NCBI GenBank assembly: GCA_025965615.1
Contig: JAOPWP010000156.1
Location: 1 to 42,046, forward strand
Length of the DNA: 42,046 bases
Reading direction: 5' to 3'
DNA from: Frankiales bacterium
GTDB taxonomy: Bacteria > Actinomycetota > Actinomycetes > Mycobacteriales > SCTD01
The notes under the pieces are model-generated. The model did not search any database, had not been told where the DNA came from, and saw only the letters and a list, made by a program, of their open reading frames with translations. The position numbers and the translations under genes are program-made. Positions 13,130 to 39,321 of this stretch are shown here, one piece after another. Within the stretch, counting starts at the first letter, position 1. The number at the start of each line of letters is the position of its first letter.

Positions 13130-16525
<3,396 letters not shown>

Positions 16526-16906: not shown

Positions 16907-16989
16907 CGCTTCCAGCTCTCGATCCGGACGGTCCGCTGAACGCCATCCGCCTGCACCGTCAGTGTCGAGCCCGCGCGCGCCCTCCCCCC

Positions 16990-17003: not shown

Positions 17004-17011
17004 GGGGCGCA

Positions 17012-17025
17012 GGGACCTTGGCCCG
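17012..17025. promoter_or_regulatory. DevR/DosR-type box 2 in the devR divergent promoter
   Basis: GGGACCTTGGCCCG, a slightly degenerate copy of box 1 placed 22 bases (about two helical turns) further right, so two DevR dimers could bind the same DNA face cooperatively. It is about 109 bases before the ATG of the rightward gene. Confidence 0.65.
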
Positions 17026-17133
17026 CATCGGTCCGGCCCCAGGCTGACGACCCTGGAGCCGAGCCCGCGAGGGCCGATCGGCTGAGCCACCGGAACCCCG
17101 GTGCCCAGGGCCGTCTGACCCGATGGAGATCAC

Positions 17134-17625: not shown

Positions 17626-17693
17626 GCTCAGGTACCCCTGCACGTACGACCGGCGACGGCACCCCGGCGCCGACCTCCGACCAAGGAGCGGAC

Positions 17694-18743: not shown

Positions 18744-18753
18744 GGTCGCTCCC

Positions 18754-19395
18754 GTGGACGGGCGCGCTGCAGGGACGACAGGTCCGGCGCGCCACGGATC
18801 CGACCGAGGTCACGTCGACCTGTTCTGGCTCCCCCTGGGAGCCGGCGGTCGGTCCGTCCGGGCGAGCGGGGTGGTCTTCGAGTCCGCGTCCGCCCGCATG
18901 GGCGGCCGGCCCCGCTGCGACCTCTACCACTCGGCGTTGGAGGTGGCCCTCGGGTCCGAGCGCTTCGTGGTCGAGATGACGCCCGTCCGGCGCGGTGGCG
19001 CCGGGCGGGGCGTCGTGTGCGAGGGCCCGGTCGGGAGTCCGTGGCTGGGACGCTCGCGGCTGTTCCGCTACGAGGTGCGCCGCTGGCAGGGCGGCACCAT
19101 CGGCGACGTGGCCGAGGCGGTGAAGAGCCCCGTGCTGGTCAGTGACGACGCAGGCACGGCGGGGCGCCTGCTTGACCTGGTCGTCGAGTTCCCTGCGCGC
19201 ACCTGGGGCCGGGACGAGCAGGGCACCGGGGAGATGTGGAACTCCAACTCGCTCACCGCGTGGCTCCTGTCGCGGACCGGCCACGACGTCGCCGGCATCG
19301 CACCTCCCGGGCACGGGCGAGCCCCGGGGTGGTCAGCTGGGCTCGTGGTGGCTCGGCGCCAGGAGGCGTCCGACCGGTCGTGGGTCGCGAGATGA
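18754..19395 (+). CDS. Conserved protein of unknown function (His ... NSNS motif)
   Basis: A 213-residue soluble protein. It has DLYHSALEVAL around residue 58 and EMWNSNSLTAWLLSRTG around residue 163, followed by PPGHGRAPGW. The order of an early His after a Tyr and a late NxNS before a helix resembles circularly permuted papain-like proteins (LRAT/PPPDE type), in which the second motif would carry the catalytic Cys; here a Ser stands there. This fold assignment is a guess. GAGG precedes the GTG start. It begins 10 bases after the ADH stop and is presumably in the same operon. Confidence 0.6.
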   Translation: MDGRAAGTTGPARHGSDRGHVDLFWLPLGAGGRSVRASGVVFESASARMGGRPRCDLYHSALEVALGSERFVVEMTPVRRGGAGRGVVCEGPVGSPWLGRSRLFRYEVRRWQGGTIGDVAEAVKSPVLVSDDAGTAGRLLDLVVEFPARTWGRDEQGTGEMWNSNSLTAWLLSRTGHDVAGIAPPGHGRAPGWSAGLVVARRQEASDRSWVAR

Positions 19396-19563
19396 CGCGT
19401 CTGGCGGTTGCCGTCCCGAGGACGGCCGGGCCGTGAGCCATGATGCGCTGGGGACAGCCTCCTGGTCTCCCGTACGGCGAGTTCTTCCGGGCAGGTCGGA
19501 CCACCACGACCTCCTGCTGACCGGCGCGGTGCGCGTCAGCCGGCCCCTGAGGTAGGACAGAGC

Positions 19564-20823
19564 ATGCGGACGATCAGCCCCGAGGGGCTCGCACGGACCC
19601 TGTCGGCCCTCCCGCAGGTGGAGCCGCGGGTGGTGACCAGCGGCAACGCCGCCACGCACCTCGACGCCCTCGGCGTCGTCGACGGGGCTCTGGAGCGCTA
19701 CCGGCTGTTCCTGCTGAACGCCCCGCTCGGTGTGCCGAGCCGGCCCGGCGTCACGCTGGAGACGCCTTTCGTCGGACCGGGACAGCGCGACCAGCCAGGG
19801 CTCGCCTACGTCCCGGCCAGGCTGTCGCTCGTCCCGCTCCTGTTCGGTGGACGTCGTCCCCCGGACGTCGTCGTGCTCCACACCACGACGCCGCGCGCGG
19901 GGACCGTCAGCCTGGGCATCGAGGTGAACATCCTGCCGGCGGCGATCGAGCAGGCCCGGGCCCGGGGCGGCCTCGTCGTCGCCGTCATGAACCCGGCGAT
20001 GCCCTTCACGTACGGCGACGCGGTCCTCCCGGTCGACGAGGTCGACCTCGCGGTCGAGATGCCGTACCCGCTGCCGTCCCCCGGGGTGCGCGCGCGGGAC
20101 GACGTGTCGCAGGCGATCGGCGACCGGGTCGCCGCTCTCGTCCCGAACGGGGCCACCCTGCAGCTCGGGATCGGCGCCGTGCCCGACGCGACCCTGGCGG
20201 CGCTCGGCAGCCACCGCTCCCTGCGCGTGTTCACGGAGATGTTCAGCGACGGCGTCCTCGACCTGCACCGCCGGGGCGTCCTCGACGCGGAGGCGCGGCT
20301 CGTGAGCTCGTTCCTGATGGGCTCACCCGAGCTCTACGCGTGGGTCGACCGCAACCCCTCGGTCCGGGTCCTGCGGACCGAGAAGACCAACGACCCCTCC
20401 GTCATCGCTCGCCAGCGCGCCATGACGTCGGTGAACACCGCCATGCAGATCGACCTGTACGCCCAGGCGAACGCCTCACGCCGTCCCGGAGGGAGCATCT
20501 TCTCGGGGTTCGGCGGCTCGACGGACTTCATCGTGGGGGCGCTGCACTCCTCCGGCGGCCAGGCCCTCTTGGCGCTTGCCTCGTGGCACCCGAAGGCCGG
20601 GGTCTCGACGGTGGTCGAGCTCGTCGACGGCCCGGTCACGTCGTTCCAGCACTCGGCCCTGGTGACCGAGCAGGGAGTGGCTCAGGTCTTCGGCGGGAGC
20701 CAGGCCGAGCAGGCCCAGGCGGTCCTCGGTGTGGCGCACCCGCGGGTCCGCGACGCGCTCCGGGCAGCCGCGCAGCGCCGTGGGCTGATCGCCGAGGGGG
20801 TCAGCCCAGCCGCCGGCCGGTGA
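19564..20823 (+). CDS. Acetyl-CoA hydrolase/4-hydroxybutyrate CoA-transferase family protein
   Basis: A 419-residue family I-type CoA-transferase or hydrolase. The N-terminal domain has RVVTSGNAATHLDAL and VLHTTTPRAGTVSLGIEVN; the C-terminal domain has LQLGIGAVPDA, then VFTEMFSDGVLDL, where Glu225 is at the position of the catalytic Glu that forms the CoA thioester. It also has SIFSGFGGSTDFI, the oxyanion/CoA region. It could move CoA between acetate and another short acid in anaerobic metabolism. GAGGTAGGA precedes the ATG. Its end overlaps the end of the convergent PNPOx-like gene by 23 bases. The 168 bases upstream hold no clear promoter. Confidence 0.85.
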   Translation: MRTISPEGLARTLSALPQVEPRVVTSGNAATHLDALGVVDGALERYRLFLLNAPLGVPSRPGVTLETPFVGPGQRDQPGLAYVPARLSLVPLLFGGRRPPDVVVLHTTTPRAGTVSLGIEVNILPAAIEQARARGGLVVAVMNPAMPFTYGDAVLPVDEVDLAVEMPYPLPSPGVRARDDVSQAIGDRVAALVPNGATLQLGIGAVPDATLAALGSHRSLRVFTEMFSDGVLDLHRRGVLDAEARLVSSFLMGSPELYAWVDRNPSVRVLRTEKTNDPSVIARQRAMTSVNTAMQIDLYAQANASRRPGGSIFSGFGGSTDFIVGALHSSGGQALLALASWHPKAGVSTVVELVDGPVTSFQHSALVTEQGVAQVFGGSQAEQAQAVLGVAHPRVRDALRAAAQRRGLIAEGVSPAAGR

Positions 20824-21388
20824 TCCGGGTCGGGCGGATGCGGATGACGCCGTGCCGCGGCCCGGCCACCCACGGGACCGGCAGCTCTCCCTCGTCGAGG
20901 GACTGGAGCTGCGCCGGGGTCAACCGCTGCGCGCGACCGACGAGCACGACGCTCCACCCCGTACTGGCCTCGTCGTCGACGTCATCGACCTCGAAGGCGA
21001 CCAGCTCCCGCCGCTCAGCGGCCTGCAGCTTCGGCCCGGGTCCCGAGCGCACCAGCACGTCGGAGCCGGACAGGACGTAGTTGACGGGTGCGATGTCCGG
21101 CACGCCTGCACGGGCGACGTACGCCATCCGACCGACCGTCTTGCCGCGCAGCAGGTCGAGGCACTCCTCGCGGGGCAGGGTGGCCATCTCGCCCGGGCCC
21201 AGAGGGAGCCCCGGCGCGGACGGGGCGAGGGACCGGCGCTCGGCGATCTGCTGGGCCAGGGAGGCGACTGCCTGGCGCGCGTTGTCGACGGCGCTCCCCC
21301 CGAGCGAGCTCACCAGGCTCGCTGTCGCGCGGGGGCGGCCGAGGGCTCGTCGCACGCCACGGCCTCGACCGGCGTCTGGAGATGCCAT
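20801..21388 (-). CDS. PNPOx-like flavin-binding protein with helical N-terminal extension
   Basis: A 195-residue protein. Residues about 65-195 form the split-barrel PNPOx-like domain (ECLDLLRGKTVGRMAYVA, DIAPVNYVLSGSDVLVRS, GWSVVLVGRAQRL). The first 65 residues are an Ala/Arg-rich helix-forming extension not found in the shorter paralogue at 12673. The ligand may be FMN or F420. It is divergent from the universal stress protein gene, sharing a DevR-type box, and overlaps the CoA-transferase gene end to end. Confidence 0.78.
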   Translation of the reverse strand: MASPDAGRGRGVRRALGRPRATASLVSSLGGSAVDNARQAVASLAQQIAERRSLAPSAPGLPLGPGEMATLPREECLDLLRGKTVGRMAYVARAGVPDIAPVNYVLSGSDVLVRSGPGPKLQAAERRELVAFEVDDVDDEASTGWSVVLVGRAQRLTPAQLQSLDEGELPVPWVAGPRHGVIRIRPTRITGRRLG

Positions 21389-21408
21389 GGGCCGAACCTA
21401 GCGGGGTC

Positions 21409-21422
21409 GGGACGTTCGGCCC
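21409..21422. promoter_or_regulatory. DevR/DosR-type box between PNPOx-like gene and usp
   Basis: GGGACGTTCGGCCC, an imperfect copy of the GGGACC-TT-GGTCCC element, 61 bases before the usp ATG and 21 bases before the divergent PNPOx-like start. Both neighbours belong to families typically DevR-induced in mycobacteria. Confidence 0.55.
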
Positions 21423-21482
21423 TCCCCCTGAGGGCGTGTCCGGAGCACAGTGAGTCGACCGAGACCGACACGAGGAGCAGTC

Positions 21483-22346
21483 ATGAACAGGATCATCGTC
21501 GGCGTCGACGCCGGCCCAGCAGGCGTGGCCGCGATGCAGTGGGCCCTCCGCGAGGCCGTGTCCCGGCAGGTGCCGCTGCACGCCGTACGGGCGTGGTCCC
21601 CCAGTGCCTACGCCATGGAGTACTCCGCCTACGTGTCCTACGAGGTCGAGCCGCAGGAGCGCTTCGTCGCCCAGGCGCTGGCCGACGAGCAGCTGAAGCT
21701 GGCCGTCGACCAGGTGCCTGGAGCGGACACCGTCACGTGCACGGCGGCGGCCGTCCAAGGCAGTGCCGCTCACGTGCTGGTGGAGGAGTCCGCCACGGCC
21801 TCCATGGTCGTCGTCGGGTCCCGCAGTCACGGCGTCCTGTCCCGGGCCGTCCTCGGGTCGGTGAGCTCGTCGGTCCTGCACCACGCGACGGTGCCCGTCA
21901 CCGTCGTGCCGGAGCCCCATGAGCACGACGGAAGGCCCGGTCGGGTGCTGGTCGGCGTCGACCACTCACCGTCGTCGGTCGTCGCCCTGGCGACCGCTGC
22001 CGAGCAGGCCCGCCGGCACGGCATGACGCTGGTCCCGGTCTACGCCCACGAACCGGTCTACGGAGATGTCGCCGGACTCGGGATCAGCTCTCCCGATCCG
22101 GCCACCCTGGAGGAGGTGGAGCGCCGCACGCTGGAGCTCGCCGCCAAGGTCGCCGGCGGGGTCGACGTGGACGCGGAGGTCGTCGTCGGCCATCCGGCCG
22201 CCACGCTGAAACTCATGGCCCGCCCGCAGGACCTGCTCGTCGTCGGCTCGCGAGGCAGGGGCGGCTTCAAGGGCCTGCTGCTGGGATCGACGAGCACCCA
22301 GTGCGTGCAGCACGCCACCTGCCCGGTCCTCGTCGTCCGGTCATGA
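21483..22346 (+). CDS. Tandem universal stress protein (UspA family)
   Basis: A 287-residue protein with two Usp domains (about 1-142 and 153-287). Each begins with a short strand and Asp (IIVGVDAGPAG; VLVGVDHSPSS) and ends with an ATP-binding Gly motif: VVVGSRSHGVLSRAVLGSVSS and VVGSRGRGGFKGLLLGSTST (G-2x-G-9x-G-S/T type). Such tandem Usps bind ATP and are associated with growth arrest under hypoxia. The ATG at 21483 follows GAGGAG; an in-frame ATG 33 bases upstream has no RBS. A DevR-type box precedes it. Confidence 0.92.
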   Translation: MNRIIVGVDAGPAGVAAMQWALREAVSRQVPLHAVRAWSPSAYAMEYSAYVSYEVEPQERFVAQALADEQLKLAVDQVPGADTVTCTAAAVQGSAAHVLVEESATASMVVVGSRSHGVLSRAVLGSVSSSVLHHATVPVTVVPEPHEHDGRPGRVLVGVDHSPSSVVALATAAEQARRHGMTLVPVYAHEPVYGDVAGLGISSPDPATLEEVERRTLELAAKVAGGVDVDAEVVVGHPAATLKLMARPQDLLVVGSRGRGGFKGLLLGSTSTQCVQHATCPVLVVRS

Positions 22347-28049: not shown

Positions 28050-28865
28050 ATGAGCGAGACCCTGGCACGTCAGTCACCCGTGGGCGTTCCGGCCTTCGGC
28101 CTGGATACGGCCCGTGTCGTCATCGCCGGAGGGACGTCAGGGGTCGGCCTCCACACGGCGCAGACGCTCGCCCTCGCCGGTGCGCCGAGCATCGTGCTCA
28201 TCGGTCGCGACGTGGATCGCGGTCGGGCGGCGGTCGAGCAGGTGCGGCGACGCTGCCCCGATGTCGCGGTGTCGTTCCTGTCGGCCGACATCAACGACCC
28301 GCGCCAGGCGGAGCGAGTGACGGCTGAGGCGCTGGAGGAGCTCGGGGGAGTCGACGTGCTCGTCAACTCCACCGTCGCCAGCTACAGCCCGGTCCTCCTG
28401 CACAAGATCCCCCTGGACGAGGTGCACGACATCCTGGTCCGGCAGGCTGTCGGCTGCCTGCTCCTCAGCCGCGCGATGATCGACACGATGCGAGACCAGG
28501 GCTCCGGCTCCATCATCAACATCGCGTCCGACGCAGCCAAGGTGCCCACGCCCGGTGAGACGGTCCTGGGTGCCGCCATGGCCGCCATCGTGACCTTCTC
28601 CCGGACGCTGGCGCTCGAGGCGAAGCGGTACGGCGTGCGCGTCAACGTCCTGACGCCCTCGCTGATCGTCAACACCGGCTCCTACGACCGGTCGATGAAC
28701 GCCGAGTTCAGCAAGAAGATCTTCGACAAGATCGTGTCCCAGGCCCACCTCGGCCTGACCGACCCGGAGGACCTCGCGAACGCGATCCTCTTCCTGGCCT
28801 CACCCCTGTCGAAGCGCATCACCGGGCAGGTCATCAGCGTCAACGGTGGCATCTCGGTCGCGTGA
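28050..28865 (+). CDS. Short-chain dehydrogenase/reductase homologue lacking catalytic Tyr and Lys
   Basis: A 271-residue SDR-fold protein. The cofactor motif is VVIAGGTSGVGLHTA (about 23-37), followed by VLIGRD, with Arg53 suggesting NADP(H), and ADINDP. The NNAG motif is changed to NST (106-108). Ser160 is present (IINIASDAAK), but at the YxxxK position, TVLGAAMAAI, Leu173 replaces Tyr and Met177 replaces Lys. The rest of the fold and the end (RITGQVISVNGGISV) are intact, so the protein is probably stable but not an ordinary dehydrogenase. It may bind a CoA ester or cofactor, or use other chemistry. It is followed after 25 bases by an acyl-CoA ligase gene. GAGGAGAG precedes the ATG. Confidence 0.82.
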   Translation: MSETLARQSPVGVPAFGLDTARVVIAGGTSGVGLHTAQTLALAGAPSIVLIGRDVDRGRAAVEQVRRRCPDVAVSFLSADINDPRQAERVTAEALEELGGVDVLVNSTVASYSPVLLHKIPLDEVHDILVRQAVGCLLLSRAMIDTMRDQGSGSIINIASDAAKVPTPGETVLGAAMAAIVTFSRTLALEAKRYGVRVNVLTPSLIVNTGSYDRSMNAEFSKKIFDKIVSQAHLGLTDPEDLANAILFLASPLSKRITGQVISVNGGISVA

Positions 28866-28890
28866 CCCATCCATCCGGAGAGCGGGAGCC

Positions 28891-30810
28891 ATGACAGCCA
28901 CGGACTTCACGGTGCCGAGCGCGTTCGGGAACCAGGCTGGGAGTGAGCTCGCTCGTCACCGGCTGCGACGCGCGCAGGACGTCGTCGAGATCGAGCGGCT
29001 CCCGCCGTCGCAGCTCCTGCCGGCGCTGACGATCCACGGCTGCATCGCAGCCGCAGCGCGGGCGGCGCCGACGAAGGTGGCCATGGCCGTCGTCGAGGCC
29101 CCGGACCTCCTGTCACCCGTCCGCGAGGTGAGCTTCCGAGATCTCGTCGCGTCGATCGAGCAGTCCGCCTGCCTCTTCCGGGCCACTGCTGGGGACGGGC
29201 CGAGCGTGGTGGGCATCATGCTGCCGATGGTGCCGGAAGGGCTCTTCGGGTTGTGGGGCGCGGCCACCGCCGGTCTCGCGGTCCCTCTCAACCCGCACTT
29301 CGACATCGACGCGGTGATCGGGATCCTCCACCAGGTCGAAGCGTCGGCTCTCGTCACGAGCCGTGAGCTGTGGGAGGCCAAGTGCCTTGATCCGGAGGAC
29401 TTCCGGCGGAGGGTGCCTACCCTCCGCCGGGTCTTCTTCGTCGAGGACCCCGAGACGGAAGACGACTTCGGCACGGCGATGCGCGCGTACGCCGGTCAGG
29501 GGCTGGCGTTCCCCGTCGACGAGGATCCAGAGCGCGACGCCATCATCATGCCGACGGGCGGTACGACCGGCGTGCCGAAGCTGGTCAGGATGTCGCAGGG
29601 CGGGCAGCTCATGGTCGCCTGGAACGTCGGTGCGCTCATGGGCAACGCTGCTGACGGGGTCGTCGCCCACGGCATGCCGAACTTCCACGTCGGTGGGAGC
29701 GTCGTCCTCGGGCTCCGGGCCATGATCACGGGCCAGACGCTCCTGACGCTCACGTCGCAGGGCTTCCGCACGAGATCCGTCGTCGACCGCTTCTGGGAGA
29801 TCGTCCAGCACTTCGGGGTGACGTCAGTTCTCGCCACACCGACGACGGCGCTCGCTCTGCTCGACCAGGAAGCCGAGGCCCCGCGAGAGCACCGGTTGGC
29901 CGACTTCCACTGCGGCGGGAGCGTCCTGCCGATGCAGCTCGTCCAAGGCTTCCACGACCGGTTCGGCATCTGGCTCCGGGAGAACTGGGGGATGACCGAG
30001 CTCCACGGGACGACCACGGGCCACTTCGACGACGGCCAGCAGCCGCGCGTCGGTTCAGCCGGCCGGTCACTGCCCTACAACTCGGTCCGCGCCGTGGAGC
30101 TGGACGGCAACCAGTTCGTCCGCGAGTGCCGTCCGGGGGAGCCGGGGATCCTCGTCATCGGCGGCCCGGGCGTGACGGCGGGCTACGTGCGCCCGGAGTA
30201 CGACGCCGACTTCTTCGTGGTCGGCATGCCTGCGCTGGGGCGCTGGGGCAACACCGGCGACATCGGGTCCGTCGACGAGGACGGTTACGTCTGGGTGCAG
30301 GGCAGGAGCAAGGACGTGATCATCCGTGGCGGGCACAACATCGACCCGAAGGGCATCGAGGACGCCCTGTGCTCGCACCCGGCGGTGCAGGTCGCGGCGG
30401 CCGTCGGACAGCCCAGCAGCTCCAAGGGCGAGCTGCCCATCGCCTACGTCCAGCTCAAGGCGGGGATGACGGCTGACGTCGCCGACCTCCTGGCGCACTG
30501 CCGATCCCGCGTGCAGGAGTCGGCGGCGGTGCCGGTGGCCATCGTCATCCTCGACGAGCTGCCGCAGACAGCCGTGGGGAAGATCTCGAAGCCGGTGCTC
30601 CGCAGGAGGGCGCTGGAGCACGAGGTGCTCGGCCTCGTGGAGCGCACGATCGGGCAGGGCCAGGCGGCCATGCGGGTCGACGAGACGGGGCCGCGGATGC
30701 ACATCGTCGTCGAGCTGCCGGCCGGCACATCCACCGCTGATGCGGAGGGCCTCCGGCAGCGGCTGGTCGGCTACGAGTTCGGCTCGGAGATCGTGATCTC
30801 CTCCGCCTGA
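28891..30810 (+). CDS. AMP-dependent acyl-CoA synthetase/ligase
   Basis: A 639-residue ANL-superfamily ligase that activates a carboxylic acid via an acyl-adenylate to its CoA thioester. Motif A3 is PTGGTTGVPKLV (in place of the usual TSGTTGxPK), then ENWGMTELHGTTTGH, WGNTGDIGSVDEDGYVWVQGR, VIIRGGHNIDPKGIE and, near the end, LPQTAVGKISKPVLR with the catalytic Lys. An extra C-terminal piece of about 70 residues follows (RMHIVVELPAGTS). The ATG at 28891 follows GGGAG. The substrate is unknown; context suggests an aromatic or alicyclic acid. The end overlaps the convergent second ligase by 40 bases. Confidence 0.85.
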   Translation: MTATDFTVPSAFGNQAGSELARHRLRRAQDVVEIERLPPSQLLPALTIHGCIAAAARAAPTKVAMAVVEAPDLLSPVREVSFRDLVASIEQSACLFRATAGDGPSVVGIMLPMVPEGLFGLWGAATAGLAVPLNPHFDIDAVIGILHQVEASALVTSRELWEAKCLDPEDFRRRVPTLRRVFFVEDPETEDDFGTAMRAYAGQGLAFPVDEDPERDAIIMPTGGTTGVPKLVRMSQGGQLMVAWNVGALMGNAADGVVAHGMPNFHVGGSVVLGLRAMITGQTLLTLTSQGFRTRSVVDRFWEIVQHFGVTSVLATPTTALALLDQEAEAPREHRLADFHCGGSVLPMQLVQGFHDRFGIWLRENWGMTELHGTTTGHFDDGQQPRVGSAGRSLPYNSVRAVELDGNQFVRECRPGEPGILVIGGPGVTAGYVRPEYDADFFVVGMPALGRWGNTGDIGSVDEDGYVWVQGRSKDVIIRGGHNIDPKGIEDALCSHPAVQVAAAVGQPSSSKGELPIAYVQLKAGMTADVADLLAHCRSRVQESAAVPVAIVILDELPQTAVGKISKPVLRRRALEHEVLGLVERTIGQGQAAMRVDETGPRMHIVVELPAGTSTADAEGLRQRLVGYEFGSEIVISSA

Positions 30811-32462
30811 GGGCTGTTGACAGCGCCGACGCCGGCGGGGGCTGACCGCTCCAGCAGCTCCAGTTCACCCTGCGCTGCGCGGTCGCGGAGCACGAACTTC
30901 TGGATCTTGCCGGTCGGGGTCATCGGGAGCTCGTCGACGAACGTCCAGAACGTCGGCGTCTTGTGGGAGGAGAGCTGGCCGCGCATGAAGTCGGTGAGGT
31001 CCTGGACCGTCGGCTTCTCGACCCCCGCGCGCACCCGCAGGACGGCGGCGATCTGCTCGCCCCACTTCTCGTCCGGCACGCCGATCACGACGGCCGTCTC
31101 GATGGCCGGGTGGTCTTGGAGGGCTCCTTCGATCTCCGCCGGATAGACGTTCATGCCACCGCGGATGATCAGGTCCCTGACCCTGCCGGTCACGCGGAGG
31201 TAGCCGCGGTCGTCCATCACGCCGATGTCGCCCATGTGCAGCCAGCCGTCGCTGTCGATCGTGCTGCCGGTCTCCTCGGGCATCCGGTAGTACCCGAGCA
31301 TGGTCTGGTAGCCCCGGAAGCAGATCTCGCCCGGCGTCCCCAGTGGGGTCGGCTCTCCGGTCAACGCGTCCGCGATCTTGACCTCGAGCTGGGGCAGCGG
31401 TTGGCCCACGGTGTTGGCCTGGTCCTCCGAGGAGTCGGTGATCCTCGTCTGGCTGATGACGCCGTGTGCCTCGGTCTGCCCGAACAGGATGGTGAACTGG
31501 CAGTCCAGCAGGCTCATCGTCCTGCGGACGAGCGAGGCCGAGACCGACGCTGCGCCGCTCCAGATGGTCTGCACGCTCGAGAGGTCGCGCTTGTCCCTGT
31601 CGGGATGGTCGAGCAGGGCGATGAGCATGGTCGGGACCACGAGGGTGTGCTCTCCGCGGTAGGTCTCGAGCGCTTCGAGCAGCAGACCGGGCTCGAAGTG
31701 CGGGAGCAGGACGAAGGTCCCCTTCTGCACCCAGACGCCGAACGACGTCACCGCGCCGCCCCCGATGTGGTACATCGGCATCGCGTTGACGCAGATGCCG
31801 CCGGGCCCCATGCCGGCCCGCTCCGCGACGAACCGCGCCTCGTTGACCAGCCCCTTGTGGTGGAGCATGGCTCCCTTCGGGAACCCGGTCGTGCCGGAGG
31901 TGTACTGCACCTGGATCATGTCGTCGGCCGTCGTGGCCGGGAGGTCGGTCGCCGCGTCGCCGCTGGCCAGGAAGGCGTCCCACTCGTCGAGCGACACCGT
32001 CTCGCGCAGGCCAGGGAGGGAGGGCAGGATCTCCTGGACCATGCCGGCCATGTCGAACCCGCGGTAGGAAGCCGTGAAGAACAGGCCCTTCGCCTGTGAC
32101 TGCTCGAGCACGAACCGCACCTCGCGGGCACGGTAGGCGGGGTTCAGGGCGACCATCACCATGCCGGCCAGGCTGATCCCCTGCTGGAGGAAGACCCACT
32201 CAGCGCTGTTCGGCGCCCAGATGGCCACCCGGTCGCCGGGGGAGAAGCGGGCGAGGAGCGCCCTGGCCACCTTCTCGGCCCCGTCGACGAACTCGCGGTA
32301 GGTCCACTGGCGGCGCAGGGCCGGATCCTCGACGCAGTCCACGAGCGCCACGCGATCCGGGACGGATGCGACCGCGTCGTACAGGACCTCGCCCACGGTG
32401 ACCGGACGGATCTCCCCCGCCTCCGCGGGCCAGTACGACGTCGTGAGCCGGGTGTCTGCCAT
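30771..32462 (-). CDS. Acyl-CoA synthetase (fatty-acyl/aryl-CoA ligase, FadD-like)
   Basis: A 563-residue ANL ligase. The P-loop is QVQYTSGTTGFPKGAML; other motifs are MPMYHIGGGAV, FGQTEAHGVISQT, GWLHMGDIGVMDDRGYLRVTGR, LIIRGGMNVYPAEIEG and MTPTGKIQKFVLRD with the catalytic Lys. It belongs to the medium- to long-chain acyl-CoA ligase group, with the acid not determined. It is transcribed divergently from the thioesterase gene, and the intergenic region holds the GGTCAGTCC motif. Its last 40 bases overlap the tail of the other ligase on the opposite strand. Confidence 0.87.
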   Translation of the reverse strand: MADTRLTTSYWPAEAGEIRPVTVGEVLYDAVASVPDRVALVDCVEDPALRRQWTYREFVDGAEKVARALLARFSPGDRVAIWAPNSAEWVFLQQGISLAGMVMVALNPAYRAREVRFVLEQSQAKGLFFTASYRGFDMAGMVQEILPSLPGLRETVSLDEWDAFLASGDAATDLPATTADDMIQVQYTSGTTGFPKGAMLHHKGLVNEARFVAERAGMGPGGICVNAMPMYHIGGGAVTSFGVWVQKGTFVLLPHFEPGLLLEALETYRGEHTLVVPTMLIALLDHPDRDKRDLSSVQTIWSGAASVSASLVRRTMSLLDCQFTILFGQTEAHGVISQTRITDSSEDQANTVGQPLPQLEVKIADALTGEPTPLGTPGEICFRGYQTMLGYYRMPEETGSTIDSDGWLHMGDIGVMDDRGYLRVTGRVRDLIIRGGMNVYPAEIEGALQDHPAIETAVVIGVPDEKWGEQIAAVLRVRAGVEKPTVQDLTDFMRGQLSSHKTPTFWTFVDELPMTPTGKIQKFVLRDRAAQGELELLERSAPAGVGAVNSPQAEEITISEPNS

Positions 32463-32575: not shown

Positions 32576-33427
32576 ATGGAGCGCATCGCGGCCGACGCGG
32601 AGCGGGCGTTCCGACGCTCGGACCCGTTGCCGGAGCTGGTCGTCGGGGGGCCGGAGACGATCTTCGGCGTCACGGACCTGTCGTTCGACGGTCCGACGGC
32701 CCGCGCCTCCATGCCGGTCACCGGGGCGCTCGTGAGGTCCGGTGGCATCACGGCGGGGTCGCTGGGGGTCCTGATCGACATCGCACTGGGCTACGCCCTC
32801 GTCGCGGCGCGCCCCCCCGGTTTCTGGTCCGTGAGCAGCGAGATCGCCGTGGAGGCGCTGGGCGGCCTCCGGTCAGCCCGAGGACGTCTGCGCGCCGAGG
32901 CTGAGGTCGTCGACGTCGACGCCCTCGGCGGGCTGGCCCGGGGACGCGTCTTCGACGACACGGGGGAGCTGGTGGCCCTGTGCAGCCAACGAGGCCGGTT
33001 CGTGCCGGTGCCGGCGGGAGGGACGAGCGCGTCAGCCGGTGGCTACGAGCGGCTGCCGGCCGGAGGGGAGCTCCTCGACCTGATCGGTGCGGAGCAGCTG
33101 CCCAGCGACCAGGGAGCCCGACTGCAGTTCGTGGCGTCGGACGCGGTGACGAATCCGCTGGGGAACCTCCACGGCGGGATCGGCCTGTGCTGCTCCGACC
33201 TCGCGGCCCACCTGGCGCTCGGCAGCTCGAACGGGCCGTGGGCCACCACGTCGCTGCAGACGTCCTACGTGCGGCCGGTTCCCGGGGGCGCTCAGGTGGA
33301 GTTCCGCGCGACGGCCCGTCATCGAGGCCGTGGGCTCGCCGTCGTGGACGTCGACGGCGTCGTCGACGGGCGGCTGTGCACGATCGCCCGCGTCACCCTC
33401 CAGCCGCCGGAGCCCCCGGCGCGGTGA
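32576..33427 (+). CDS. Double-hotdog acyl-CoA thioesterase (PaaI-like)
   Basis: A 283-residue protein with two hotdog domains in tandem (about 25-145 and 165-280). Domain 1 has SGGITAGSLGVLIDIALGYAL; domain 2 has TNPLGNLHGGIGLCCSDLAAH, the HGG/Asp-type signature of PaaI-like thioesterases. It would hydrolyse an acyl- or aryl-CoA, perhaps to recover CoA from dead-end intermediates. GGAGACAGG precedes the ATG. Its last 35 bases overlap the end of the convergent paaX-like gene. Confidence 0.8.
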   Translation: MERIAADAERAFRRSDPLPELVVGGPETIFGVTDLSFDGPTARASMPVTGALVRSGGITAGSLGVLIDIALGYALVAARPPGFWSVSSEIAVEALGGLRSARGRLRAEAEVVDVDALGGLARGRVFDDTGELVALCSQRGRFVPVPAGGTSASAGGYERLPAGGELLDLIGAEQLPSDQGARLQFVASDAVTNPLGNLHGGIGLCCSDLAAHLALGSSNGPWATTSLQTSYVRPVPGGAQVEFRATARHRGRGLAVVDVDGVVDGRLCTIARVTLQPPEPPAR

Positions 33428-34235
33428 TCTCGCGCCAGCCCTCCCGCGCGAGCGGGCTCCACCGGTCGCGCAGCTCGCAGATGAGGGCGGCTGCCTCCCG
33501 CCCTCTCCACTCGGGCAGCAGCTCCTTCGGCAGCCTGGGGTCGAGCCGGATGAACCGCTGCAGGTCGTTGAGCAGCTCGAGGTGCGCGAACAGGTGCTCC
33601 CCGGGGGTGCGCGGCCGCAGGCCCGAGAACCGCTGGATCAGCGAGTCGTAGCGCTCCTCGAGGATCGACAGGTCCCACGCCTGCTTCACCACGTCGTCGT
33701 CGGTCAGGCCGATGCCGCGGGTCTCGCCGACGAACGCGTAGGCAGACCGGGTGAGACCCAACTCGCCCACGAGCAGCTGCAGGCCGTCGGCGGTCGATGC
33801 ATGGGGGGTGACCCACACGCCCGGGCTCGGGTTGCCCATGCCGAGCCAGGACAAGCCGCCGTACAGCTTCCTGCGCATGCTCCGCTGCTCGTTCGTGAGC
33901 GTGACCAGCAACACCAGCCACCGGTCGTCCCACGGGTCAGGCTCCCGCAGGAGGGCGGCTGAGCGCCGGTGCCCGTCCTCCACCAGCCCCTGCCCTGTGG
34001 GGGTCAGCGTCCACCAGGCGGTCCTGCCGTGCTTGCTGCCCGCGATCCACCCCGACGCTGAGCTCCTCGCGATCGCCTGGCGGGCCGCGTGGTCCTCCAC
34101 GCCCATGCCCCGCAGCGCCTGGAGCAGCGCACCCGTCCGGACGGGCTTGTCCTCCGGGTAGACCAGCTCGCCGAGCACGGTCAGCAGGAGCGAACGCGCG
34201 CTGGGAGCCGGAAGCGGGCGCTCATCTGATCTCAC
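33393..34235 (-). CDS. PaaX-family transcriptional repressor
   Basis: A 280-residue regulator. The N-terminal winged helix starts ARSLLLTVLGELVYPEDKPVRTGALLQAL and continues with ARQAIARSSASGWIA and GRTAWWTLTPTGQGLV; the C-terminal part (RRKLYGGLSWLGMGNPSPGV, LRPRTPGEHLFAHLELL) is the PaaX effector domain. PaaX members repress aromatic-acid catabolism and respond to an aryl-CoA. Divergent position to the reductase-like genes fits local control. I chose the GTG at 34235 because homologues start just before SARSLLLTVLG; an ATG at 34295 would add 20 residues and nearly overlap the candidate operator. Confidence 0.82.
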   Translation of the reverse strand: MRSDERPLPAPSARSLLLTVLGELVYPEDKPVRTGALLQALRGMGVEDHAARQAIARSSASGWIAGSKHGRTAWWTLTPTGQGLVEDGHRRSAALLREPDPWDDRWLVLLVTLTNEQRSMRRKLYGGLSWLGMGNPSPGVWVTPHASTADGLQLLVGELGLTRSAYAFVGETRGIGLTDDDVVKQAWDLSILEERYDSLIQRFSGLRPRTPGEHLFAHLELLNDLQRFIRLDPRLPKELLPEWRGREAAALICELRDRWSPLAREGWREITAPGAPAAGG

Positions 34236-34304
34236 CGGCTCATTCTCGCCGACGGGTGGCGCGGGCCGGAACCGCTTCCCGCGCAGGGTTCCCATCCGCG
34301 GCCA

Positions 34305-34369: not shown

Positions 34370-35530
34370 ATGTCCGAGGCACTCGAGGCGCAGCAGCGCC
34401 TGCAGGCGGTCGCGCGTGACCCGCGCGCGTACCTGGAGCAGTGGCGGCAGGCACATCCCGGGGGGAAGGTCATCGGCGCGTTGCCTATGAACTTCCCGCG
34501 TGAGATCGCCTATGCAGCAGGTGTTCTGCCGGTGATCGTCCAGGACGACCAGAAGCCCGTCACGGAGGGCAGGGCCCTGCTGGCGGAGTTCTACTGCGGG
34601 TACACGCGGAACCTCGCGGACCAGGCAGCGACCGGGCGCTTCGACATGTACGACGCGCTGTTCATGGCCGACCACTGCATCCAGCTGATCGGCTCGGCGG
34701 ACATCGTGCGCGCTGTCACGCCGCAGCCCGTCTTCTTCGGCATGCTGATCAGCTCCCTGAGCGACAGCTGGGCCGGCGCCAAGATCGCCGAGATGATGGG
34801 GGAGTTCCGGTCCGAGCTCGAGCGGTTCTCGGGCCGCACGATCGAGGACCACGAGCTGCGCGCCAGCATCGTCGCGTACAACAAGGACCGCCAGCTGCTC
34901 CGCCGCATCTTCGACGACCGCTCGGCCGGCAGTGCCGTGCACTCGCCGACGCAGCTCCAGGACTACGTCGTCTCGTCGATGGTCATGGACCCCGTGGAGC
35001 ACCACAGGCTGCTCGAGGCAGCGGTGTCGGAACCGGCGTCGCGCGACCGGGACGCACGGGTCCGCGTCCACCTGTCGGGTCACCTGTGCCACGCGCCGCG
35101 GCGCGAGCTGCTGGAGGTGATCGAGGACAGCGGGGCGCTCGTGGTCGATGACGACCTCTACACCGGCCGGCGCTACCTCTCGACCGACGTGGACGAGTCG
35201 CTCGACCCGCTCGACGCGATCGGCAAGTGGTACGCGCAGCGCAACGTCAACATCCCGTGCCCGACCCGGGTCCAGCACGACGCCGACTGGGACGAGTACC
35301 TCGTCGAGGCCACCCGGTCCAGCGGGGCGGAGGCGGTCATCCACCTCATGCCCAAGTTCTGCGAGCCGCACATGCTCTTCTACCCCGAGCTCCGCAAGAG
35401 CTTGGAAGCGGCGGGGATCCCGCAGCTGCTCATCGAGACCGAGCACGAGGGCATCCCGCTCGAGGCCTTCCGCACGCGGGTCGAGGCCCTCGTGGAGCTG
35501 ACCCTGCGCAAGCGCCCCGTCCACGTGTGA
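34370..35530 (+). CDS. BcrC-like subunit of a benzoyl-CoA reductase/2-hydroxyacyl-CoA dehydratase
   Basis: A 386-residue iron-sulfur protein of the HgdB/BcrC superfamily, whose members accept a low-potential electron from an ATP-driven activator and pass it to a CoA ester. Conserved features are ALPMNFPREIAYAAGVLPV, FYCGYTRN (Cys76), ADHC (Cys103), HLSGHLCHAPRRELLEVIED, VVDDDLYTGRRY and MPKFCEPHMLFYP (Cys331). Cys76, Cys103 and Cys331 are candidate ligands of the active-site 4Fe-4S cluster. The pattern around VVDDDLY and KFCEPH is nearer to BcrC/BadD than to dehydratase subunits, and the length equals BcrC (about 387). GGAGGAG precedes the ATG. A 25-base gap separates it from the next subunit gene. 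Confidence 0.82.
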   Translation: MSEALEAQQRLQAVARDPRAYLEQWRQAHPGGKVIGALPMNFPREIAYAAGVLPVIVQDDQKPVTEGRALLAEFYCGYTRNLADQAATGRFDMYDALFMADHCIQLIGSADIVRAVTPQPVFFGMLISSLSDSWAGAKIAEMMGEFRSELERFSGRTIEDHELRASIVAYNKDRQLLRRIFDDRSAGSAVHSPTQLQDYVVSSMVMDPVEHHRLLEAAVSEPASRDRDARVRVHLSGHLCHAPRRELLEVIEDSGALVVDDDLYTGRRYLSTDVDESLDPLDAIGKWYAQRNVNIPCPTRVQHDADWDEYLVEATRSSGAEAVIHLMPKFCEPHMLFYPELRKSLEAAGIPQLLIETEHEGIPLEAFRTRVEALVELTLRKRPVHV

Positions 35531-35555
35531 CCACCCCGACCACCAGGAGCCTGAG

Positions 35556-36944
35556 ATGACGACGACCACGACCACGACGCCCGCTCGTGACCAGACGAAC
35601 CGCCTGACCATGACCAGGACCGGCAGCAAGATGATCGCCGACTACTGGGAGGACCTGTTCGTCGCGCGCGAGAACGGCAAGAAGATCGTCTGGTACAACG
35701 GCGGCGCGCTGAACCCGATGTTCCAGGCAGCCGGTCTGGCGTGGTGCCACGGCGAGGCCTTCGCGGCGCGGCTCGCCGCTCAGCAGCTCGAAGGCCCGGC
35801 CCAGTTGGCCGGCGCGGAGTACGGCTACAACTCCGAGCTCTGCTCGTACTCGCGGACCCACCTCGGCTGCGCCGTCCTGACGGTCCAGGGGTCCGACGAC
35901 CCCCAGACCGGAGTCGTCGGACTGCACGATCGTGTCGACCTGGCCTCGAAGCTGCCCTCACCGGACTTCTTCGTGAACAACTACGCGGGGTGCAGCACCG
36001 GGCAGCAGTGGGACGAGGTGTCGTTCCGGATCTTCGGCAAGGACCTTCCGATCTTCAACATCTCGCACCCGTTCCTGTGGGGGAACAAGCCCGACGCCGG
36101 CTACCTGCGCGGCGAGGAGTGGGACTCGGCCTCGCAGTACGTCCGCGGCCAGCTCGTCGAGCTCATCGACTTCATGGAGACGCAGACCGGCGAGCCGTTC
36201 GACTACGACAAGCTCAACGAGTCGATGACCTACATCAAGCGAGCAGCCGAGCTGCGCCAGGAGGGTCTCGAGCTCTGCAAGGCCAAGCCGGCCCCGGCGA
36301 CCTTCTGGGACTGGATCGCCTGCATCGCGCCGATCAACTTCCTCCCGGGGGACCAGGCGCTGGTCGACTACTTCCAGGGGGTCAAGGACGAGATCCAGCA
36401 CCGCGTGGACAACGGGATCTCGGGCATCGAGAACGAGAAGTACCGGCTGTACTTCGACGGGATCATGAACTGGAACAAGCTCGGGTTCCTGTCCAGGAGG
36501 TTCGCCGAGCACGGCGCCGCGGTGCTGGCCGGGCGCTACATCCAGAACGCGTTCTGGCAGGAGCCGCAGCTGATCGACACCAGTGACCCGCTGCTCGGGA
36601 TGGCTCAGCACTACCTGCTCTGCCCCACCAACCACGGGTCCAAGACCCTCGACTACCTCACGCTGAAGGACACCGCCGACTACGACATCGACGGGCTCGT
36701 CTTCCACGCCACGCGGACCTGCCGGGCCTTCACCGGACCGCAGCGCCTGCTCGCGAAGTCAGCGCGGGACAACCTCGGCGTCCCGTCGATCTTCTTCGAG
36801 GGCGACGTCGCAGACGCCTCCTTCTACAAGGACGAGATCCTGGAGAGCCGGCTCGTCGCGATGCTGGAGGCGATCGACGTCGCCCGTGAGCGCGGCGACC
36901 ACAAGGTCGCAGGATCCGGCGCCGAGGTGGCTTGGCCCTCGTGA
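35556..36944 (+). CDS. BcrB-like subunit of a benzoyl-CoA reductase/2-hydroxyacyl-CoA dehydratase
   Basis: A 462-residue partner subunit of the same superfamily (BcrB/BadE or HgdA type). After a Thr-rich start it has KIVWYNGGALNPMFQAAGL, YNSELCSYSRTHLG (Cys96), NNYAGCSTGQQWDEV (Cys146) and, near the end, HATRTCRAFTGPQ (Cys389), plausible ligands of a second 4Fe-4S cluster. Together with the preceding gene it would form the substrate-reducing heterodimer. RBS AGGAGCC is 5 bases before the ATG. The stop overlaps the activator start (GTGA), so the stoichiometry of subunit and activator is coupled. Substrate (benzoyl-CoA, a substituted analogue or a 2-hydroxyacyl-CoA) cannot be read from the sequence. 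Confidence 0.8.
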   Translation: MTTTTTTTPARDQTNRLTMTRTGSKMIADYWEDLFVARENGKKIVWYNGGALNPMFQAAGLAWCHGEAFAARLAAQQLEGPAQLAGAEYGYNSELCSYSRTHLGCAVLTVQGSDDPQTGVVGLHDRVDLASKLPSPDFFVNNYAGCSTGQQWDEVSFRIFGKDLPIFNISHPFLWGNKPDAGYLRGEEWDSASQYVRGQLVELIDFMETQTGEPFDYDKLNESMTYIKRAAELRQEGLELCKAKPAPATFWDWIACIAPINFLPGDQALVDYFQGVKDEIQHRVDNGISGIENEKYRLYFDGIMNWNKLGFLSRRFAEHGAAVLAGRYIQNAFWQEPQLIDTSDPLLGMAQHYLLCPTNHGSKTLDYLTLKDTADYDIDGLVFHATRTCRAFTGPQRLLAKSARDNLGVPSIFFEGDVADASFYKDEILESRLVAMLEAIDVARERGDHKVAGSGAEVAWPS

Positions 36945-37873
36945 CCCGTCGCGTCCTGGGCGTCGACCTCGGTTCGACGACGGCGAAGGCGGTCGTCGTC
37001 GACGAGGCGGGGGCGATCCTCGCCTCTTCGACGGTGGCCATGGGTGCCGTCTCGCGTGCCGGGATGCACCGGTGCATCGATGAGGCGGTCGGCCGCGCAG
37101 GGATCGAGGTCGGTGACGTCTCGGGAACGATCAGCACCGGCTACGGGCGCAAGCTCGTCCCCGGGATCCAGCGGAGCTACACCGAGATCACCTGCCACGC
37201 CAGGGGAGTGGCGGCAATGGTCCCCGGCGTCCGGCTCATCGTCGACATCGGGGGCCAGGACTCCAAGGCGATCACCGTGGACAAGGACGGTCTCGTCGTC
37301 GACTTCGCCATGAACGACCGGTGTGCGAGCGGCACCGGACGCTTCTACGAGGTGCTGGCCCGGGCGATCGAGATCGAGCTTCCCGAACTGGGGCCGCTCG
37401 CGATGCGCGGCAGCCAGGACCTCGAGGTGAGCAGCATGTGCGCCACCTTCGCGGAGACGGAGATCGTCTCGCTGATGGCCCAGGACATGCGCGTCGAGGA
37501 CATCGCCTCATCGGTGCACCGGGCGATCGCGGGCCGGACCCTCGCCCTGGTCGCGCAGGTAGGCAGGCGCACCCCGGTGGTGATGACGGGGGGGGTGGCC
37601 AGGAACCCGGCTGCCGTGCACTTCCTGTCCCGCGCTCTCGACCACGAGGTGCTCGTCCCGGAGCAGCCGCAGATCTCCGGTGCCTACGGTGCCGCGCTGC
37701 TGGCCATGGAGTCGTTCCTCCGGACCTCACCGCCGGTCCCGGACGTTCCAGGCGCGGACTTCATCTTCCCCCGGGTCGACCACACGGCCGCCGGCCACTC
37801 CTGCGCCGGGTGCGACGGCCACCTCAGGGGCAAGGTCGAGCTCGGCGCGGCCATCCCGCTGCGGAGCAGCTGA
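36941..37873 (+). CDS. ATP-dependent activator (BcrA/BcrD/HgdC, BadF/BadG family)
   Basis: A 310-residue ASKHA-fold ATPase that binds a 4Fe-4S cluster between two protomers and fires electrons into the reductase using ATP. Nucleotide-binding motifs are GVDLGSTTAKAVVVD, STGYGRK and VDIGGQDSKAI. The cluster ligands are Cys128 (NDRCASGTGRF) and Cys167 (SSMCATFAETE), practically the positions of Cys127 and Cys166 in HgdC. It is longer than HgdC (about 260) by a C-terminal tail with Cys288-x2-Cys291 (SCAGCDG), not part of the usual fold. Only this one ATPase gene is present where class I benzoyl-CoA reductases have two (BcrA and BcrD), so it probably works as a homodimer. Confidence 0.88.
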   Translation: MTRRVLGVDLGSTTAKAVVVDEAGAILASSTVAMGAVSRAGMHRCIDEAVGRAGIEVGDVSGTISTGYGRKLVPGIQRSYTEITCHARGVAAMVPGVRLIVDIGGQDSKAITVDKDGLVVDFAMNDRCASGTGRFYEVLARAIEIELPELGPLAMRGSQDLEVSSMCATFAETEIVSLMAQDMRVEDIASSVHRAIAGRTLALVAQVGRRTPVVMTGGVARNPAAVHFLSRALDHEVLVPEQPQISGAYGAALLAMESFLRTSPPVPDVPGADFIFPRVDHTAAGHSCAGCDGHLRGKVELGAAIPLRSS

Positions 37874-38170
37874 GCCGTCGGGGAGCCGGGACCACGGTCA
37901 CCGGCAGTTGGTCATCCGCGACTGGGGCAGCTGTTCGAACATGCTGACCTCGGCTCCCGCGCGGAGGAGCGCCTGTTCGGTGTAGCGCCGTCGATGCACA
38001 CCTCAGGGTCGGTGGAGAGCATCTCCGCGTGGTCGGACTCCGGCTCCCACGGGGCCGGGCCGACGCCGTTTCACGAGGCGTGCGGGCGCGCCGCCTGCGG
38101 CGTCGCTGCAGCAGTGCTGCGTCACGACGTGCGGCAGGTGAGCCTCAATGTGGACATGTTGGTGAAGTCG

Positions 38171-38199
38171 TTGACGTGAAGCGTCTCACATCTTATGGT
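38171..38199 (+). promoter_or_regulatory. Sigma-70-type promoter candidate for dctPQM
   Basis: TTGACG (38171-38176) and TATGGT (38194-38199) are separated by 17 bases, a good match to a housekeeping promoter and unusually AT-rich for this window. The -10 overlaps the GGTCAGTCC operator candidate, so a repressor bound there would block transcription of the transporter genes. Confidence 0.5.
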
Positions 38200-38206
38200 C
38201 AGTCCA
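38196..38206. promoter_or_regulatory. GGTCAGTCC operator candidate upstream of dctP
   Basis: TGGTCAGTCCA, identical over 12 bases to the site at 32550-32561 and related to the perfect palindrome at 28003. It overlaps the putative -10 element, 54 bases before the dctP ATG. Confidence 0.45.
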
Positions 38207-38259
38207 TTCTGAAGGTCCAGCCATCAGAACCCCCGCCCACGTATCGAATGGAGACCCGC

Positions 38260-39321
38260 ATGCGCAAGTCGATGAGGATGGGCCTTCTGGGGACGGCGCT
38301 GCTGTCCACGGCTCTGGCAGCTGCGTGCGGAAGCAGCGGCGACACCGCATCCACCGCGGCGGGCAGCTCGGACAAGAAGGTCAACCTGACCCTGGGGCAC
38401 GCCTTCCCCGCCGACCACCTGACCATGGACGTCCTGACGCCCTGGACGAAGTCGGTGTCCGAGGCGACGGGCGGCACGGTCACCATCGACGTCCAGGGAG
38501 CCGGCGCACTCGGCGCCGGGACGGTTGTCTACGAGAACGTCGTCAGCGGCGCGCAGGACCTCGGCATGGCCATCCAGGGCTATACGCCTGGCAAGTTCCC
38601 CCTGACCGAGGCGGTGGACCTCCCCTTCCGCTTCACCCGCGCGGAGCAGGCGACCAGGACGCTCTGGGACGCCTACGAGCAGTTCCCCGAGCTGGCCGCG
38701 GAGTACAAGCAGACGAAGGTGCTCGCCCTGTGGGCCACCGACGTGGGTGACATCTTCACCGCCAAGAAGCAGGTGAAGACGATGGAGGACATGAAGGGCC
38801 TCACCCTGCGCGGCCCCGGAGCGACGCAGAACCGACTCATCGAGGAGCTCGGCGGCAAGGGCGTCGTCATGCCGGCAGCTGACGTCGTCGACTCGGTCGA
38901 CCGAGGCGTCATCGGCGGACTCATGGTCGCCGGCTCCGGCCCGAAGTCGCTCGGCATGGCGAAGTCCCTCGACTACGGGCTCCGGTGCGCCTGCTACACC
39001 ACGGCGCTGTTCCTGACCATGAACCAGAAGGAGTGGGACGGCCTGTCTGACGCGCAGCGGGCCGCGATCGACAAGACCGCTGGACGCGAGCTGTCCATCA
39101 AGCTCGCGAAGCGGTTCGACGCTGCGTACGACGGTGGCATCGCGGCTCTCGTCGAGGGTGGGGCGACCATGACCGTCCTCGAGGGCGAGGAGCGCAAGCG
39201 CTGGGAGGCGGTCGGCGACAAGGTCATCCAGGAGTGGGTCACGGCGCGCAAGGCAGCCGGGCCCTCGCAGAAGCTCGTCGACTTCGTCAAGACGAAGTCA
39301 CGGGAGTACGCCGCCAAGTAG
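38260..39321 (+). CDS. dctP: TRAP transporter solute-binding lipoprotein DctP
   Basis: A 353-residue extracytoplasmic binding protein. The signal peptide (MRKSMRMGLLGTALLSTALAA) ends in a lipobox LAAAC, so Cys23 should be lipidated and anchor the protein outside the membrane. The mature part has VNLTLGHAFPADHLTMD, IDVQGAGALGAGTVVYENV, LPFRFTRAEQATR, GLTLRGPGATQN (region of the carboxylate-binding Arg) and DSVDRGVIGGLMVAG. TRAP systems take up organic acids using an ion gradient. GGAG precedes the ATG; an in-frame ATG 12 bases earlier is possible. Position next to the reductase-like genes suggests it delivers the acid that the pathway degrades. Confidence 0.88.
   Translation: MRKSMRMGLLGTALLSTALAAACGSSGDTASTAAGSSDKKVNLTLGHAFPADHLTMDVLTPWTKSVSEATGGTVTIDVQGAGALGAGTVVYENVVSGAQDLGMAIQGYTPGKFPLTEAVDLPFRFTRAEQATRTLWDAYEQFPELAAEYKQTKVLALWATDVGDIFTAKKQVKTMEDMKGLTLRGPGATQNRLIEELGGKGVVMPAADVVDSVDRGVIGGLMVAGSGPKSLGMAKSLDYGLRCACYTTALFLTMNQKEWDGLSDAQRAAIDKTAGRELSIKLAKRFDAAYDGGIAALVEGGATMTVLEGEERKRWEAVGDKVIQEWVTARKAAGPSQKLVDFVKTKSREYAAK

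Follow-up and report, generated by a model that had tools for sequence, protein, structure and literature searches.

What kind of enzyme is encoded by a three-gene operon in which two subunits of the reductase/dehydratase superfamily are combined with a single ATP-dependent activator? The operon was found in a Frankiales bacterium, on a stretch of 42,046 nucleotides (contig C72; JAOPWP010000156.1 of assembly GCA_025965615.1) that is called the window here and keeps the position numbers of the original prediction. That prediction, made from the sequence alone, described a hybrid architecture possibly acting on an aromatic coenzyme A (CoA) ester. The reading preferred here is a tentative one: the operon may encode an ATP-driven reductase of aryl- or cyclic-dienoyl-CoA that feeds ring cleavage of the Bad/Mrc type, and it is favoured over a radical dehydratase, the next most probable explanation. 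The three genes are:

34370..35530, + strand: C-like (relay) subunit, 386 amino acids, PF06050; C76, C103, C297 and C331 invariant, C240 nearly invariant
35556..36944, + strand: B-like (catalytic) subunit, 462 amino acids, PF06050; cluster ligands C96, C146 and C389 invariant
36932..37873, + strand: ATP-dependent activator, 313 amino acids, PF01869; bridging-cluster cysteines C131 and C170

According to the open reading frames, the genes form a tight operon on the plus strand, overlapping or closely spaced, with a divergent PaaX gene. The C-like gene starts with ATG at 34370, preceded by GGAGGAG, and the TTG start of the activator gene overlaps the stop of the B-like gene. The Pfam scores are 201 bits (C-like) and 161 bits (B-like) for HGD-D (PF06050) and 202 bits (activator) for BcrAD_BadFG (PF01869); with cut-offs of about 30 bits for these families, the assignments are far beyond chance. 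Reading frames and Pfam therefore agree with the predicted one-activator system. The predicted cysteine positions 76/103/331 and 96/146/389 are correct, as is the activator pair 128/167, which is C131/C170 when counted from the TTG start rather than a later one, but the invariant C297 and the nearly invariant C240 of the C-like subunit had been overlooked. Alignment further assigns a catalytic E67 and the thioester-contact tyrosines Y98 and Y328 (window numbering) to the B-like subunit.

The names BcrC-like and BcrB-like hold at the level of the superfamily (PF06050) but not by the curated NCBIfam models. The C-like subunit is under every equivalog cut-off (BcrC 152 of the 421 bits required, HadC 127/700, BzdN 120/454), and so is the B-like subunit (HadB 121/750, BcrB 87/487, BzdO 54/449). 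The activator is a generic acyl-CoA dehydratase activase by TIGR00241 (225.9 bits, cut-off 125.4); its nearest solved relative is HadI (4eht, E 7e-67), followed by MbdQ (E 3.5e-56).

When one genome of each GTDB species was scanned, the B subunit was found encoded at 56 loci, mainly in actinomycetes with a few proteobacteria. The hosts include Pseudonocardia, Amycolatopsis, Nocardioides, Rhodococcus, Nocardia, Gordonia, Saccharopolyspora, Citricoccus, Brevibacterium and others and, outside the actinomycetes, Zhongshania, Hydrocarboniphaga and Steroidobacter. Most host genera are aerobes. Plasmid-borne members were found in Rhodococcus ruber, Sphingopyxis, Azoarcus sp. KH32C and a Rhodobacteraceae strain. 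Identity in the B subunit is 52-85% across the 56 loci and 48% in the KH32C plasmid copy. The family is sparse, as nothing above 32% identity except the window's own sequence was found in 396 evenly sampled genomes of the phylum. The operon was not found in the eight genus mates and 15 family mates sampled. C subunit, B subunit and activator occur as 1:1:1 at 45 of the 56 loci and as two of each at four, two of which are the same Citricoccus region; the other seven are incomplete within the stretch examined. One activator per C-B pair at 45 single and four double loci makes the one-activator architecture a property of the family. The predicted hybrid thus stands as one activator with reductase/dehydratase-family subunits, but not as a peculiarity of this organism.

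Two plasmids show other arrangements. The Azoarcus sp. KH32C plasmid encodes a 685-amino-acid protein (L142:12906-14963) that appears to be a fusion, as it matches both activator and C subunit; genes for a second activator, a B-like protein and a 4Fe-4S ferredoxin are close to it. Three C-B pairs, of which two or more are close to the one-activator family, lie on the 124-kb Rhodobacteraceae plasmid CP023455.1 (L104).

The host genome is a metagenome-assembled genome (MAG) of 3.14 Mb in 282 contigs, 99.5% complete and 3.5% contaminated. A Pfam search of the whole MAG found no PF06050 gene beyond the C-B pair of the operon and no second activator, the sole other PF01869 match having 21 bits, under the cut-off; the search for a BcrA/BcrD pair elsewhere, proposed with the original prediction, thus gave none. 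An ordinary four-subunit class I benzoyl-CoA reductase with an overlooked second ATPase, to which the top curated model of the C-like subunit (BcrC) might point, is very improbable in view of this search, of the activator counts across the loci, of the low equivalog scores and of the separate clade described next.

Trees were made from the C and B sequences separately and from a careful concatenation of both (37 rows, 784 columns). In all three the family is one clade with 100/100 support and a long stem, apart from Bcr with Mbd, from Bzd, from Had with Fusobacterium and Proteus sequences, and from sequences that we take to be of Coriobacteriia type, a label that is a guess. The Had/Fusobacterium/Proteus dehydratase clade likewise has 100/100 support, and the subunits do not fall firmly inside known 2-hydroxyacyl-CoA dehydratases, a placement that would have spoken against the original prediction. 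The best tree joins the family to Bzd (82/89), and approximately unbiased (AU) tests are non-significant for joining it to Bcr/Mbd (p 0.26), Had (p 0.185) or the Coriobacteriia-type sequences (p 0.079). Judged from these alignments, the sister group may be any of the four.

Predicted structures fit the superfamily in the same way. The AlphaFold model of the B-like subunit (predicted local distance difference test, pLDDT, 78) has MbdO (9g87_A, E 6.5e-19) and HadB (E 1.6e-17) as best Foldseek matches, and that of the C-like subunit (pLDDT 87) has BzdN (8s02_B, E 5.7e-24) and HadC (3o3m_D, E 4.2e-23). The fold search is compatible with both reductase and dehydratase.

Two other groups of PF06050 proteins were seen in the phylum. 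The Coriobacteriia-type C-B pairs (L069-L097), from other classes, are about 30% identical to the one-activator family. In 26 of 27 their C subunits have the BzdN six-cysteine double-cubane signature, partnered by HadB-like catalytic subunits (Thr-Ser-Gly, Trp302), a combination that matches neither Had nor Bzd types as described (PMC11971306). A distant pair of about 460 and 490 amino acids (L005-L011) occurs in three large genomes of one genus of the same order (G034, G047 and G056) and is not close to the one-activator family or the reference sets.

Cluster ligands were mapped on alignments to BzdN and BzdO numbering, with 58 family C subunits and 58-59 B sequences covering each position. 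The double cubane of BzdN is held by Cys36, 73, 100, 263, 293 and 327, and the catalytic cluster of BzdO by Cys95, 128 and 380 together with Glu65 and His131; Tyr97, Tyr298 and Gln274 contact the thioester, and HadC holds a [4Fe-5S] cluster (PMC11971306). The family C subunits have Cys at 73, 100, 293 and 327, precisely as HadC does, with Pro at 36 and an aromatic residue at 263. A double-cubane relay ([8Fe-9S], six Cys) is therefore not expected, because the equivalents of Cys36 and Cys263 are Pro and aromatic in all 58 sequences, whereas BzdN keeps all six. Of the residues around the distal subcluster of BzdN, Arg267 is kept in all C subunits, Arg290 in nearly all and His330 in most. In the B subunits Cys95, 128 and 380, Glu65, Tyr97 and Tyr298 are present in the window protein and in every family sequence covering the position. 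These residues around the relay cluster and in the active site, together with the fold, are shared with Bzd (BzdNOPQ, 8s02). In nearly all B subunits position 131 is Gly, where Bzd has His and Bcr/Mbd have Phe, and the residues at 44-45 are Asn-Gly; position 274 is Ile, as in HadB.

Thauera BcrABCD and the 3-methylbenzoyl-CoA reductase MbdNOPQ share the fold, the catalytic cluster ligands and the catalytic Glu with the family, and also two loops. C240 (window numbering) is found in 57 of 58 family C subunits, within an FC[HE]xP loop that exceeds its Had/Bzd counterpart by two residues. This Cys loop is common to 9/9 BcrC and MbdN and absent from Had, Hgd-type and Bzd sequences; 17 of the 27 Coriobacteriia-type sequences have Cys in the column, without the two-residue extension. 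The loop after Tyr298 of the B subunit is likewise of BcrB/MbdO length, not of Had length. On the other hand, Bcr/Mbd have two different ATPase subunits, their C subunits (BcrC and MbdN) have lost Cys293, and the family is a 100%-supported clade of its own with mainly aerobic hosts. DCCP/DCCP-R has the superfamily fold and a single ATP-driven reductase component, but DCCP is a homodimer with six-Cys subunits, whereas in the heterodimer of the family C contributes four HadC-type Cys and B three. By alignment, then, the family mixes HadC-type ligands with Bcr/Mbd-type loops. A C-subunit homologue at a dehydratase-type locus of Fusobacterium vincentii (L102:4983-6143) is without all four relay cysteines, which are replaced by Tyr, Asp, Asp and Asn.

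The activators of the family have about 45 additional C-terminal residues beyond the point where the alignment to the solved activators HgdC/HadI stops. The tail has the motif SCxxCDG in most sequences, and its cysteine C291 (window numbering) is invariant in the alignment. This C291-bearing tail is a peculiarity of the family.

HadIBC, the (R)-2-hydroxyisocaproyl-CoA dehydratase, is similar to the family in having one activator and four relay cysteines in HadC, as are HgdCAB and FldIBC. The operon might thus encode an ATP-activated dehydratase of alicyclic or other hydroxyacyl-CoA, a real though lesser possibility. A ketyl radical would expel the alpha-hydroxyl, the resulting cyclic enoyl-CoA would enter the same BadK/BadH/BadI-type ring opening, and only catalytic electrons would be needed. 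The single activator closest to HadI, the HadC four-Cys set (C73, C100, C293, C327, BzdN numbering) and Ile at B position 274 agree with such an enzyme, a clade with Had is not rejected (AU p 0.185), and a genome that has no 2-oxoacid:ferredoxin oxidoreductase would be tolerable for it. However, the FC[HE]xP Cys240 loop, extra with respect to Had, and the B-loop length are Bcr/Mbd-like, and Asn-Gly stands at 44-45 in place of Had's Thr-Ser, without a Thr/Ser-Ser motif. The scores are far below the Had cut-offs (HadB 121/750, HadC 127/700 bits) and the clades are separate. In addition, it is not obvious from the gene sets where a cyclic 2-hydroxy acid would come from, and the linked P450 sets yield ring carboxylates.

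These gene sets also connect the family to ring cleavage. Within at most 10 kb of flank for each of the 56 loci, CoA ligases were found at 43, short-chain dehydrogenases (SDR) at 41, PaaX at 36 (34 within five genes of B), crotonases at 21, acyl-CoA dehydrogenases at 18, CaiB at 16, APH-type kinases at 12 and a cytochrome P450 set at nine. One neighbouring crotonase in the relatives resembles BadI/MenB, and cyclohexanecarboxyl-CoA dehydrogenase is the nearest type for the acyl-CoA dehydrogenase, but neither reaches the equivalog cut-off. The original prediction saw no ring hydratase or hydrolase, which is correct for the window; the genome as a whole does encode such enzymes. Genes on contig C125 of the same MAG are for a BadI/MenB-like hydrolase, with a score of 339 bits against BadI, and for an acyl-CoA dehydrogenase, a 2,4-dienoyl-CoA-reductase-like SDR, three further crotonases, an APH kinase, CaiB and a LIV-type ABC transporter, and its pathway enzymes are 70-84% identical to genes no more than 10 kb from the operon in relatives. 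In R. ruber the same hydrolase-dehydrogenase-SDR block lies about 20 kb from the operon. Like the operon, the C125 hydrolase was not found in the eight genus mates and 15 family mates sampled, and this joint absence fits joint acquisition, though as a single event.

The nine relatives with a P450 belong to four genera (Rhodococcus, Nocardia, Nocardioides and Pseudonocardia). The best solved match of this P450 is P450tol (681 bits), then P450terp/CYP108 (464 bits), and it is accompanied by a ferredoxin, dehydrogenases and LuxR regulators. The ring methyl of p-cymene, limonene and terpineol is where CYP108N enzymes introduce a hydroxyl group (PMC11889516, PMC11279926), and a conserved CYP108 cluster with LuxR, ferredoxin, alcohol dehydrogenase and aldehyde dehydrogenase is known in Rhodococcus (PMC7037279). 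The mrc monoterpene ring cleavage in Castellaniella takes limonene via perillyl-CoA to a hydratase, a dehydrogenase and a BadI-like hydrolase (PMC4109377), and descriptions also exist of the Bad/ali route and of the form it has in Rhodococcus (PMC9795900, PMC5906575). The BadI/MenB-like hydrolase, crotonase hydratases, SDR, acyl-CoA dehydrogenase and dienoyl-CoA-reductase-like gene are common to these pathways (R. palustris, Aromatoleum, Castellaniella, R. aetherivorans chcpca) and the gene sets of the family. The portions of the mrc and chcpca reports that were seen describe no ATP-driven reductase, whereas the one-activator family links one to ring-cleavage genes.

Neighbourhoods that vary (acyl-CoA dehydrogenase 18, crotonases 21, CaiB 16 and P450 9 per 56 loci) and importers that alternate among TRAP, MHS, MFS and LIV-ABC could also mean that the ring-cleavage genes are merely frequent neighbours, and that the enzyme is an ATP-dependent reductase of some other conjugated or hetero-substituted CoA ester with no six-ring aryl or diene. 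This is improbable, as the linkage recurs across genera at 70-84% identity and operon and hydrolase are jointly absent from close relatives.

The window itself has the following genes around the operon:

28050..28865, + strand: SDR, of the gene cluster common to the operon-side SDR in 41 of 56 relatives
28846..30810, + strand: second acyl-CoA synthetase, AMP-binding; PRK07529 498/632 bits
30771..32462, - strand: acyl/alicyclic-acid-type CoA ligase, AMP-binding
32576..33427, + strand: double-hotdog acyl-CoA thioesterase, 4HBT and 4HBT_3C
33393..34295, - strand: PaaX-family repressor with three PaaX Pfam domains, divergent from the operon
38107..39321 (start approximate), + strand: TRAP solute-binding protein, DctP-type; PF03480 130 bits
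39461..40036 (start approximate), + strand: TRAP small permease DctQ; PF04290 87 bits
40033..41334, + strand: TRAP large permease DctM; PF06808 296 bits, TIGR00786 above its cut-off

The predicted neighbours PaaX, thioesterase, two CoA ligases and DctP-Q-M transporter are thus confirmed by Pfam. The intergenic region between PaaX and the operon is 74 bp with only weak inverted repeats around it. The gene cluster of the thioesterase is near the operon in seven of 56 relatives. The ligase at 30771-32462 reaches 267 of 792 bits for TIGR03208 (cyclohexanecarboxylate-CoA ligase), which is not specific.

If the preferred reading holds, the three proteins would act as an ATP-driven radical enzyme on a CoA ester. 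In the activator, probably a homodimer, C131 and C170 from each chain would hold a bridging [4Fe-4S] cluster. Its ATP hydrolysis would drive low-potential electrons through the iron-sulphur cluster of the C subunit to an open-site [4Fe-4S] cluster, held by three cysteines in the B subunit, beside the catalytic Glu67. The linked CYP108-type P450 sets and mrc/Bad-type pathway genes suggest a ring carboxylate, as CoA ester, as the natural input. A perillyl-CoA-type monoene would not need an ATP step, so the enzyme would be most useful for an aromatic, cyclic-diene or cyclic hydroxyacyl ester. The most likely reaction would then be reduction of a ring-conjugated CoA ester, for example 4-alkylbenzoyl-CoA, to an alicyclic dienoyl- or enoyl-CoA. 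Crotonase-type hydratases, the SDR and the BadI/MenB-like hydrolase would convert this by hydration, oxidation and ring opening into a product of pimeloyl-CoA type, and PaaX might repress the operon until aryl- or alicyclic-CoA is present.

Several observations weigh against a ring reductase. The relay subunit carries the four HadC-type cysteines, the nearest solved activator is HadI, and the tree tests place the clade with no single known family. No 2-oxoacid:ferredoxin oxidoreductase was found in the MAG, so a stoichiometric low-potential electron donor is not evident, and no benzoate-CoA ligase model is among the matches listed for the ligase at 30771-32462. C125 is a separate contig of the MAG, which may or may not be physically linked to the operon in the host, and the BadI-like block also occurs without the ATP-driven operon, on an M. 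paragordonae plasmid. Moreover, the hosts are mostly aerobes, and clusters of this kind are normally oxygen-sensitive.

Class I benzoyl-CoA reductases have been described from anoxic environments (PMC11971306). A literature search found no functional study of the one-activator clade, and the annotated records examined carry only the generic name '2-hydroxyacyl-CoA dehydratase family'. A wider proposal, which we regard as doubtful, is that ATP-driven Birch-type reductases have a third lineage, with one activator, which evolved for oxygen-respiring actinomycetes, where O2-dependent ring-methyl oxidation would be followed by CoA activation, reductive dearomatisation and hydrolytic opening with no ring dioxygenase. 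More generally, the presence of the conserved clade in Rhodococcus, Nocardia, Gordonia, Amycolatopsis, Nocardioides and Pseudonocardia, with active-site ligands that do not vary and ring-cleavage genes to match, would imply that ordinary aerobes use ATP-driven radical chemistry on CoA esters, and an enzyme that functions there would be a better start for biocatalytic Birch reduction. Many family hosts can be cultured and some lend themselves to genetic work, which makes the question directly testable.

The host of the window encodes a haem-copper oxidase and nitrate reductase, and therefore probably respires oxygen and possibly nitrate. The nitrate reductase genes are in the window:

5672-12614: narGHJI, with Pfam support for GHJ and NarI by position only

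The nitrate-respiring host of the original prediction is thus possible, but this is not defining for the family. Contamination or a binning error is unlikely for C72, which is native judging from its 13-27 kb stretch with about 70-81% DNA identity to genus mates, and is not indicated for C125, whose tetranucleotide make-up is that of the rest of the bin. Adjoining narGHJI, the region 13130-22346 contains genes for a GAF-domain histidine kinase, a nitroreductase, an alcohol dehydrogenase, an acetyl-CoA hydrolase/transferase and a universal stress protein. This cluster resembles a low-oxygen response region and is partly common to genus mates.

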